A DNA stretch of 43,854 nucleotides from an uncultured Clostridia bacterium (GTDB taxonomy: Bacteria; Bacillota; Clostridia; Lachnospirales; Lachnospiraceae), in assembly GCA_948472945.1 (NCBI GenBank), contig CAOKVX010000020.1, forward strand, positions 1-43,854. The letters are read 5' to 3'. Position numbers and translations under genes: made by a program. Each line of letters opens with the position of its first letter. Position 1 is the first letter of the stretch. Below the pieces are notes generated by a model. The model saw only the letters and a program-made list of their open reading frames with translations. It had not been told where the DNA came from and ran no database searches. Shown here one piece after another: positions 26,315 to 31,803 of the stretch.

Positions 26315-26600
26315 AAAAATAGCCGCCTCCTTTTCGCACTTTAATTTCAGCACGACAAGTGGTGACTGTACACTTATCCGTGTGTGTCGCACCTACATGC
26401 AAAAAAAATATTTTTGCATCAGGACGCCTTACACGTTTATCTGCTCTAAGACAGAATGTATAATCCGTACAGTGACTTGTCGTCATGTTTTGGGCGATAT
26501 CTTATCACCTCTCCTGACATTCGCTCCACGAAAAACCCACCTGCCAAGAGGCTTTATCCAGTGGCAACCTCCGCTTCTTCGCTATCATGTCACACAGCAT
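26315..26600 (-). ncRNA. Structured leader of the S10 operon
   Basis: About 285 nt separate the expected start site from rpsJ. A long-range stem joins CGACAAGT and ACTGTAC (plus-strand 26353-26360 and 26365-26371) with ACTTGTCG and GTACAGT (26475-26482 and 26467-26473), enclosing about 95 nt. Inside is a hairpin formed by TGCAAAAA and TTTTTGCA (about 26398-26419). A further TGCCA/TGGCA stem lies near 26540-26570. This closed-domain design fits a regulatory leader, perhaps for L4 feedback; the ligand is inferred only from family precedent. Confidence 0.45.
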
Positions 26601-30193: not shown

Positions 30194-30439
30194 GAGACGG
30201 CGTTATAACAATAGTAATCCGTTAACAATATTGCTAAACTGTTTGACAACATACAGAAACCTGTCGGCGAAATTACAAGAATACGTTGGCGGCAGCCACC
30301 CCCCTTGGTGCTGTCGCATTAAGCCGCATACCTGCAAGATAAAGTATACTAAATCTCGCATTTACTACAATATCTTGTATTATATGCGATTAGAGCGACA
30401 GCCTCAGGTCAAACAATGAAAAACCGATAGGGAGATTAT
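30194..30439 (+). other. Intergenic region with competing stems upstream of the zinc-ribbon gene
   Basis: GCGGCAG...CACC (about 30290-30300) pairs with GGTGCTGTCGC (about 30307-30317), a stem with one bulge. Further on TCGCAT/ATGCGA (about 30356-30389) enclose TACAA/TTGTA. GCAAGATA (about 30334) could instead pair with TATCTTG inside that second hairpin. No clear promoter could be fixed; TATACT at 30345-30350 has no good -35. Confidence 0.35.
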
Positions 30440-30540
30440 AAGGGTGAAAGAAAAAAGAAGAAAGGGTAAAATGCAAACACATATCTTTCACCCTTTGTGT
30501 TTGCGCCTCAAATGAAAATGCAATCATTTTCGCTTGAGGC
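30440..30540 (+). promoter_or_regulatory. Candidate RNA switch: two exclusive hairpins and an SD-sequestering hairpin
   Basis: Segment A, AAGGGTGAAAGA (30440-30451), pairs over 12 bp with A' TCTTTCACCCTT (30484-30495). Segment B, GCAAACACA (30473-30481), lies in that loop and pairs over 9 bp with B' TGTGTTTGC (30496-30504), which abuts A'. With no linker, both stems can hardly form at once, so they are probably alternatives. B' is directly followed by GCCTCAA (30505-30511) pairing with TTGAGGC (30534-30540), nested with GAAAATG/CATTTTC. This last stem hides the only GAGG before the start codon. All stems are exact matches in the sequence; switching and the ligand are inference. Confidence 0.5.
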
Positions 30541-30552
30541 TTGGTGCAAAAT

Positions 30553-31530
30553 ATGAAGAAATTTATTTGTCCAAACTGCAGAACTGCGATGTCATTAGAC
30601 AGTTCAGACGGGACGCTCACCTGCGTTTCATGCGGAAATTCAATTCCCATAACTGATTTTGAACATCATGAATTTGGAAATATTAAAAACAGCCAATATA
30701 TCAAAAAATATGCTGCAAAAAATAAGGACTTGCATACAGACGGCTTCACCACGGAAAATTACGCGGACTCCGGCACAAATACATCCATAAGTCCCGTTTG
30801 CTACATTCCGTTTGAACTGAACTCAGACGACGTCAAAACCTTTCTTTGTAAAAAACCGTTTGGAAAATTGTTTTTTACAAAGAACTTCAAACGCGTTGTA
30901 ACGGAACAGTTATTTGAAAAAATATATGTTCCGGTATGGTCACATAAAATTTTGGCAAAGGGCTCAATCAACGCCGCATGCACCGAATTTGACAGAGACG
31001 CCACCAACTACTATGACGTTGAAAAACACGCGCAGCTGCTGTTTGAACAGTTCAATACGGTTGCAACTACAATGAACGGCCCGCTTCATATAGAATCACT
31101 ATTTCCGTACAAATTAGACGGCGCATTATATGCGAATGAATACGAAGATAAAAAAATTAAAAAGAAAGACGGCATAATAACTCTTGAAGCTGACATACCG
31201 CCGGACAGATATGAAGATAACATAAAAAAATACGCGGACAGGGCTTCAAAGGACAAACTCAACACTCTTCTATCAGGCTACTCGTCGGCGCACAACAAAA
31301 TATTTAAATGCGACTCCAATGTATTGGCAACTAAACTCATTTATCTTCCCGTTTGGAAGATACCTTTTGGCACAAAGGACGCATCCGAATGCATGTACGT
31401 CAACGGCCAGACCGGAAAGAGCTCGGGAAAACTGCCAATTAGCAAAATGAAATCCACTGCATTTATCTTGCTTACATTTATTGTAATTTTTGCCGCTTTA
31501 ATATCTGCCGCATATTTTGCCGGACTATAG
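30553..31530 (+). CDS. TFIIB-type zinc-ribbon membrane protein of unknown function
   Basis: 325 residues from the ATG at 30553; TTG or GTG at 30541-30546 are alternatives nearer the GAGG. The N-terminal zinc ribbon is CPNCRTAMSLDSSDGTLTCV plus SCG (Cys6, Cys9, Cys24, Cys27). A soluble middle region (VPVWSHKILAKGSIN, LIYLPVWKIPFG) resembles YgjV/TFIIB-ribbon proteins of Firmicutes, and a single C-terminal membrane helix (about 303-322) anchors it. The ribbon would face the cytoplasm. It lies before a TPM-domain protein, a pairing seen in other Firmicutes. The leader carries a possible RNA switch and the 3' side a MITE. Confidence 0.7.
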   Translation: MKKFICPNCRTAMSLDSSDGTLTCVSCGNSIPITDFEHHEFGNIKNSQYIKKYAAKNKDLHTDGFTTENYADSGTNTSISPVCYIPFELNSDDVKTFLCKKPFGKLFFTKNFKRVVTEQLFEKIYVPVWSHKILAKGSINAACTEFDRDATNYYDVEKHAQLLFEQFNTVATTMNGPLHIESLFPYKLDGALYANEYEDKKIKKKDGIITLEADIPPDRYEDNIKKYADRASKDKLNTLLSGYSSAHNKIFKCDSNVLATKLIYLPVWKIPFGTKDASECMYVNGQTGKSSGKLPISKMKSTAFILLTFIVIFAALISAAYFAGL

Positions 31531-31550: not shown

Positions 31551-31725
31551 TAGCTCAACGGCGCCAATTCAAACCCGTTTCGAAATCTTTGACCGAGGAT
31601 GGTGAATTTTGGCGAAATACAAGGCTGGAGGACGCAGTCTTGCTGACGCAAGACAAGAACGAAAAACACAGTAGTTCGCCAAAATACGCCGTCCTCGGCG
31701 GGTTCAAATTGGCGCCGTTTAGCTA
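31551..31725. mobile_element. MITE-like element, complete copy 2 (175 bp)
   Basis: It begins TAGCTCAACGGCGCCAATTC and ends with the complement AATTGGCGCCGTTTAGCTA. It matches copy 1 (1880-2073) nearly base for base, except for about 19 bp missing after the left CCCGTTTCGAAA and scattered substitutions. The same central hairpin GTCTTGC/GCAAGAC is present. It is inserted 20 bp after the stop codon of the zinc-ribbon gene, between it and the TPM gene. Confidence 0.8.
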
Positions 31726-31803
31726 AATAATCATTCGTATTTGGGAATTATTAGTACAAAAATTTTGGAATTGCCTATCAATATAAAAACTTAAGGAGCG
31801 CTT

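Follow-up and report, generated by a model that had tools for sequence, protein, structure and literature searches.

The hairpin array found in the window, by which we mean the whole 43,854-nucleotide stretch of Lachnospiraceae DNA analysed here, is a real structure, and the 109 nt at 30442-30550 of the forward strand (GGGTG...GGTGCAAA) are one copy of a dispersed element of about 110 bases, not a riboswitch of a zinc gene. Judging from a comparison of its copies, we regard the element with moderate confidence as a mobile translation-initiation cassette, in which a split Shine-Dalgarno (SD) sequence would be rejoined by folding and translation would be relayed from the native SD of the gene. 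Its mobility is well supported, and so is selection acting on the element in cis; the split SD is likely, and a relay that hands ribosomes on from the native SD is a plausible model.

The copy in the window

Three stems, all on the forward strand, constitute the array, and sequence as well as folding against shuffled controls agree with the first-pass annotation on each of them. Stem A (12 bp) connects its 5' arm at 30440-30451, which encloses a GTG at 30444-30446, with its 3' arm A' at 30484-30495. Stem B (9 bp) connects 30473-30481 with B' at 30496-30504 and contains A' in its loop. Hairpin 3 follows at 30505-30540; its pairing is kept among copies, its sequence is free. The segment 30430-30545 folds with -37.5 kcal/mol (z = -5.05), and stem B together with hairpin 3 (30467-30556) gave z = -5.38; none of 200 shuffles was equally good in either case. 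As the order is A-B-A'-B' and A' abuts B' with no linker in between, full A and full B must on geometric grounds exclude each other, which is what had been proposed. In the window, the computed energies are -35.6 kcal/mol for the A state and -30.0 kcal/mol for the B state, and if 30432-30460 (the GTG region) is held open during folding, the window adopts the B fold instead of the A fold. Among 28 copies, the A state is the stabler one in only 18, two of which (L029, L030) owe this to a misalignment of stem B in the alignment A3 introduced below.

The signals for translation are arranged around these stems. The native SD of the passenger gene, GGGAG at 30430-30434, lies outside the element and, as read by eye, the GTG at 30444-30446 stands at SD distance from it. 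The upstream ORF opened by this GTG (30444-30515, read by eye) is in frame with an ATG at 30471; by eye, its frame is not conserved among the copies. The internal SD half, AGAAAGGG (consensus AGAAAGGR), is located at 30459-30466, and the proposed second half is the GGTG at 30543-30546, the GG of which precedes the ATG of the gene by 8 nt. A second upstream ORF (30512-30556) begins with an ATG inside hairpin 3, and its stop overlaps the ATG of the gene as ATGA. The passenger gene itself (30553-31530) encodes, by eye, a zinc-ribbon protein with a C-terminal membrane segment, and its zinc-ribbon Pfam matches score under their curated cut-offs; its start is likely ATG 30553 and not TTG 30541 as given in the ORF list. 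Hairpin 3 had been thought to bury the SD of this gene, a GAGG. The hairpin is there, but GAGG does not qualify as a conserved signal: in diverged copies it is replaced, while AGAAAGGR and GGT stay.

Other structured segments were noticed in the window. A 131-nt hairpin at 30280-30410 (-46 kcal/mol), for which no second copy was found within the window, lies between the upstream gene and the element. A long imperfect palindrome occurs twice, at 31551-31740 and at 1880-2075 (86% identity; -83 kcal/mol over the 171 nt of 31555-31725), and probably represents a second dispersed repeat family. An S10-Clostridia ribosomal protein leader (RF03136, 58.5 bits) is found on the reverse strand at 26477-26587, upstream of an S10-like ORF; it is the only match of Rfam 15 in the whole window. 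Within 30200-30700, a search with E-values up to 10 gave four hits of 10.2-17.9 bits compared with gathering scores of 50-98, and 20 further loci with copies gave none. The Rfam search suggested by the first-pass annotation thus returned no family matching the array.

Copies and their conserved parts

At the DNA level, the source genome contains 10 matches (eight of them longer than 100 nt) with 73-100% identity, which terminate on the ATG codons of unrelated genes. Two of the 10 genomes searched in the genus possess the same DNA, and at family level 22 of 299 genomes match, some of them at 96% in other genera; in this latter search only the two best candidates per genome were scored. A covariance model (R1), which was built on an alignment of 28 copies (A3), detected nine matches in the own genome, 23 in G284 and 15 in G140; in five named genomes, it found 43 (D16-51), 22, 20, 16, and 10. 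R1 matched 32 of 397 family genomes and 30 of 334 genera, counts which include class II or shorter relatives in G108, G089, G301, G144, G193, and G096 (see below). In a class-wide draw under strict filters, 1 of 391 genomes matched, namely the source genome alone. A pattern scan of genomes listed mostly Lachnospiraceae names, both MAGs and isolates, among them D16-51 and Mobilisporobacter senegalensis; searching phages, plasmids, and viral contigs for the element gave zero matches. Copies cluster by genome: in a test with 51 copies from seven genomes, from which the G284 copies had dropped out, the nearest neighbour came from the same genome in 25 cases, compared with a mean of 9.2 and a maximum of 18 for shuffled labels.

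For the statistics given below, 147 distinct copies possessing GGT..ATG were collected. They originate from 85 model hits (nine antisense palindrome hits being excluded) and 99 pattern hits, which gave 163 rows after de-duplication; 16 rows had no GGT..ATG in the window of the script and were dropped (L018, L035, L037, L096, L112-L118, L122, L157, L164, L232, L242). Of the latter, L018, L037, and L115 still end on an ATG by sequence, L164 and L232 do so with 3-4 extra nt, and L035 does so beyond its enlarged hairpin 3.

The position relative to the start codon can be determined without bias from the scan of named genomes with a pattern taken from the middle of the element, which fixes neither end. 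The ATG was found 9-11 nt from the start of GGT in 92 of 97 distinct copies, and at exactly 10 nt in 82. Counts derived from model hits are slightly biased in this respect, as the ATG makes up 3 of the 118 positions of R1. For the 147 copies, which were pre-selected for a GGT 5-9 nt before the ATG, the spacing between GG and ATG is 8 nt in 126 cases, 9 in 12, 7 in 8, and 10 in 1. An ORF of at least 60 codons, or one running off the locus, follows 135 of these copies, and a shorter one follows 12. Copies lacking a gene start at their end are L094, which opens no ORF, and L157 and L242, which have no ATG; L094 and L157 look like orphan copies. One further copy, L155, has lost its left half.

The downstream genes, to which names were assigned by eye on the basis of the N-terminal protein sequences, are unrelated: they comprise trpA, mnmG, iscS, miaA, murG, tsaD, RlmB, aroB, lspA, yicC, feoB, parA, and others, and have no common metabolic or stress theme of the kind expected for a riboswitch. 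Two of them, murG and tsaD, are essential in other organisms. At locus L083, the neighbours aroB and lspA each carry a copy of their own. A same-strand ORF of at least 100 codons ends not more than 150 nt upstream in 80 of 138 copies, so that many copies may lie inside operons. Since copies precede many unrelated genes within one genome, the zinc-ribbon gene is a passenger, and a control specific to this gene is not supported.

The stems are maintained by compensatory changes. In A3, 90.8% of the pair cells are standard pairs; two-sided changes affect 14 of 36 pairs (shuffle mean 7.5), and 35 cells are changed on both sides compared with 11.6 in shuffles. The covariation score exceeds those of all 500 shuffles and of all slid versions, and hairpin 3 contributes most two-sided changes (9 of 15 pairs). 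The first-pass annotation had suggested looking for covariation among orthologous zinc-ribbon leaders; it is observed here across paralogous insertions instead.

The fold survives in diverged copies. For this comparison, 48 copies were used, i.e. the 41 having less than 85% identity to the consensus, minus the short forms L009, L010, and L120, plus 10 of 13 further loci; for one copy (L258) the script picked a wrong SD. The region between the SD and GGT folds into a pair of directly adjoining stems in 38 of the 48 copies and into a three-way junction in another 5, giving a total of 43 compared with 4.8 for dinucleotide shuffles. In G357, the layout is kept with a new stem B sequence (GCCACA/TGTGGC), in four G140 copies a GUGCA/UGCAY stem closes the junction and clamps SD and GGT together, and L303 has a foreign hairpin in place of hairpin 3. 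The motif RAAGG is located 50-90 nt before GGT in 138 of the 147 copies, most commonly at a distance of 82 nt (73 of 147). The conserved parts are AGAAAGGR, stem B, hairpin 3 (irrespective of its sequence), and a GGT located some 8 nt ahead of the ATG. Note that B' and the 5' arm of hairpin 3 are prescribed by the scan pattern; consequently, their invariance in pattern-found copies is uninformative. Stem A is no better than shuffled in the old copies L051, L070, L077, and L121 and persists in the G140 subfamily, the run-length control for this stem being weak, as shuffled loops alone reach runs of about 6.

Insertion sites and relatives of the element

Filled and empty sites can be compared directly. 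The yicC site is filled in G005 and empty in all eight readable sister genomes (G000, G001, G002, G004, G006-G009), and G003 gave no match for this site. The empty site of G002 reads GTATGAA^TAATG, the filled one ATTGAA^[element]^TAATG; according to this alignment, the insertion point ...GAA^TAATG lies 2 nt before the ATG and behind the native SD, and no loss is visible. At aroB, the filled site and the closest empty relative have by eye an equally long SD-ATG spacer; at lspA, the filled and the empty spacer differ by one. The bounds of the element follow from a tandem pair in D16-51 (L306), where a second element has inserted into the first: GGTGTAAA|GGGTGAAAG...GGTGCAAA|TTATG. The element is consequently GGGTG...GGTGCAAA, and its GTG replaces the ATG behind the native SD; in the pair, the GTG of the second copy stands at the ATG position of the first.

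A readable left edge was available for 99 of the 147 copies. Of these 99, 70 contain an SD core in the 16 nt that directly precede the element, and 16 of 99 contain one in the control interval -45..-29; the distance between native SD and element varies from 0 to 12 nt. At the two positions left of the insertion point, A is favoured, with frequencies of 0.90 and 0.87 (99 copies). To the right, TT is favoured and found in 72 of 147 copies; the background is AA 67 and TT 64 of 355. With GGGTGAAAG at one end and GGTGCAAA at the other, the element lacks the terminal inverted repeats of a MITE, and at the filled and empty yicC and aroB sites no target-site duplication was seen beyond A bases that cannot be assigned.

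In our analysis, we found no mobilising enzyme. Single-stranded DNA transposition of the IS200/IS605 type, with CAT as target on the other strand and hairpins as ends, was considered and rejected: the Y1 transposase (PF01797) occurs in three of five genomes searched, and there were no matches in D16-51, which has 43 copies, or in the own genome. We also looked for an autonomous copy with an internal gene; the partial matches inspected were internal deletions, truncations, or enlarged hairpins. That the distance to the ATG is fixed and the distance to the SD varies suggests that initiation sites are recognized. A far-reaching reading, which is in our opinion unlikely, sees here a new class of mobile elements with the start codon itself as target: since such sites are read by the initiating ribosome, insertion may proceed via mRNA bound in an initiation complex, followed by reverse transcription, and the inserted element would replace the initiation region of the gene by an RNA-folded split SD to which ribosomes are relayed from the native SD.

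Several variants and relatives were encountered. A sister class (class II) consists of hairpin A and hairpin 3 and has neither an internal SD nor stem B. All 20 class II hits that were fetched with R1 end on an ATG, such ends being favoured by this model, and 17 are followed by an ORF of at least 50 codons. A native SD core is found at most 14 nt upstream in 15 of 20, and GGAGG stands 5-8 nt before the ATG in 16 of 20, which marks the place after hairpin 3 as an SD site. These loci (L313-L332 in G089, G301, G193, G144, and G096) are about 84-89 nt long and mostly contain a TTTGAAAG hairpin. Short relatives in G108 end with GTTAACAAA or similar and have no SD; L113, L116, and L117 are not at gene starts, and L118 is doubtful. 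Possibly, they are a third class or an ancestor. Internal deletions between AAAATGCAA/GTGCAAA repeats (middle of L020, L299-L301, L294, L295) leave the SD of the element close to the ATG of the gene. Hairpin 3 is enlarged by about 60 nt in L101 (1296-1476) and by about 190 nt near 1500 in L035; its base and GGT..ATG remain. Another intergenic Lachnospiraceae repeat (L041-L043, L052) shares the hairpin core AAATGAAAATGCAAGCATTTCCGCTTGG.

Proposed initiation by a split Shine-Dalgarno, alternatives, and precedents

We propose that the element inserts in sense direction 2 nt upstream of start codons and would keep the gene translated by means of its own initiation module. The internal AGAAAGGR and the terminal GGT(G) would be the two halves of one long SD, and stem B and hairpin 3 would fold in between, thus bringing the halves and hence the ATG together: as stem B abuts hairpin 3, the strands with both halves leave at one point. 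This corresponds to a split ribosome binding site, in that the SD is too distant from the AUG and a structured spacer of two abutting stems shortens the gap. The 3' tail of the Firmicutes 16S rRNA, which we take to be ...GAUCACCUCCUUUCU-3', pairs with AGAAAGGAGGUGAUC, and AGAAAGGA and GGUG are its two adjacent halves. A pattern search for this tail in 12 genomes found nothing, so that the match to the anti-SD is putative; GGT(G) can form only 3-4 bp. Both the pairing of the anti-SD with the two halves and the way in which the element moves are what we infer. Stem A, the competitor of stem B, contains the GTG of the element, which occupies the place that the gene's ATG formerly had behind the native SD. 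Initiation by a ribosome at this GTG would open stem A and release B'; the freed B' would form stem B, the split SD would assemble, and the native SD would in this way pass translation on to the gene. Loss of the spacer structure should lower translation, as the compensatory changes suggest.

Other explanations have to be weighed against this proposal. Exclusive stems beside a start codon and compensatory changes could belong to a riboswitch or an autoregulated leader sensing a ligand or protein for the zinc-ribbon gene, and the notion of an RNA device acting at the level of translation is retained from the first-pass annotation. A ligand, and zinc or membrane stress in particular, is not: within a single genome, this block stands in front of many unrelated genes, no aptamer-like core is evident, hairpin 3 can be exchanged for a foreign hairpin (L303), Rfam gave no match, and GAGG is not conserved. 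We therefore rejected the zinc or membrane-stress riboswitch and consider a ligand- or protein-sensing leader of the zinc-ribbon gene very improbable. Equally improbable is a post-transcriptional regulon, in which one RNA-binding protein (e.g. of the CsrA type) controls all bearing genes. One element before many genes and a conserved GGA-containing loop would suit it, but the gene sets differ between species and are by eye without theme, and the precise insertion into scattered genes resembles transposition; such control might at best be a use acquired later.

If the element were a passive palindromic repeat similar to MITEs or REPINs, its hairpins would serve transposition only and the genes would be translated despite the insert. 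Its shortness, high copy number, clustering by genome, and lack of coding constraint fit this picture; the diverged copies, in which SD, stem B, and hairpin 3 persist and, in L051, L070, L077, and L121, stem A is being lost, do not, nor do the deletion forms that retain the SD before the ATG or the presence of copies at murG and tsaD. We thus judge a passive repeat to be rather improbable. The overlap of the consensus frames as ATGA brings up a further scheme, in which ribosomes would pass from the native SD to the GTG-started ORF and via coupled short ORFs to termination and reinitiation at ATGA, the stems having only a tuning effect. Indeed, 83 of the 147 copies possess an ATG-started upstream ORF whose stop is at most 12 nt away from the main ATG. 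Against such a relay of leader peptides, the first short ORF shows no codon-position bias (55, 43, and 56 substitutions in 86 close copies), an ATG follows the SD within 14 nt in only 108 of 144 copies, all of which had been chosen for having an SD, 18 have no ATG, GTG, or TTG there, and in 12 of 147 the 50 nt ahead of the gene contain no ATG. These numbers make this scheme an improbable one, too.

The split-SD cassette, which we prefer, has relatives among known systems. MITEs, REPINs, and bcr-type repeats are short, non-coding, and hairpin-forming, and occur in many copies and lineage bursts, as does the element. Unlike these repeats, it showed neither terminal inverted repeats nor a clear target-site duplication, its target is the start codon, all collected copies are in sense direction, and initiation signals are carried along. 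Rickettsia palindromic elements and mobile bypassing elements are likewise small mobile palindromic inserts tolerated by the host gene; they are located within reading frames, where they are either translated or skipped, whereas the element precedes the start codon. In Beggiatoaceae, TAACTGA repeats stand only a few nt from the start codons of unrelated genes, and a translational role is suspected; they differ from the element in being tandem heptamers with little SD character and without precise insertion of a defined folded element (PMC4679880). The nearest precedent for a shortened distance between SD and AUG is found in phage T4, where RNA structure reduces this spacing from 27 to 11 nt in gene 25 and from 22 to 5 nt in gene 38 (PMC3014915). 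In both systems, an intervening RNA structure brings, or would bring, a distant SD near the AUG; the T4 sites described there are gene-specific, in contrast to a dispersed mobile element (PMC3014915). Moreover, the element has two stems plus a competing one, and GGT(G) would act as the second part of the SD.

A search of the open-licence literature yielded no description of such an element. The components, hairpin repeats that are small and mobile on the one hand and split SDs on the other, have been described before; their combination in an element directed to start codons has not, as far as we have searched. A mobile element with start codons as its precise target, bringing along the signals by which the gene stays on, would form a type of transposable element that is absent from the literature searched. 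The family illustrates that translation initiation regions, including those of housekeeping genes, can be replaced wholesale. Its roughly 150 natural variants lend themselves to testing split or structured ribosome binding sites, and the element may serve as a portable translational part for Lachnospiraceae, which are major gut bacteria.
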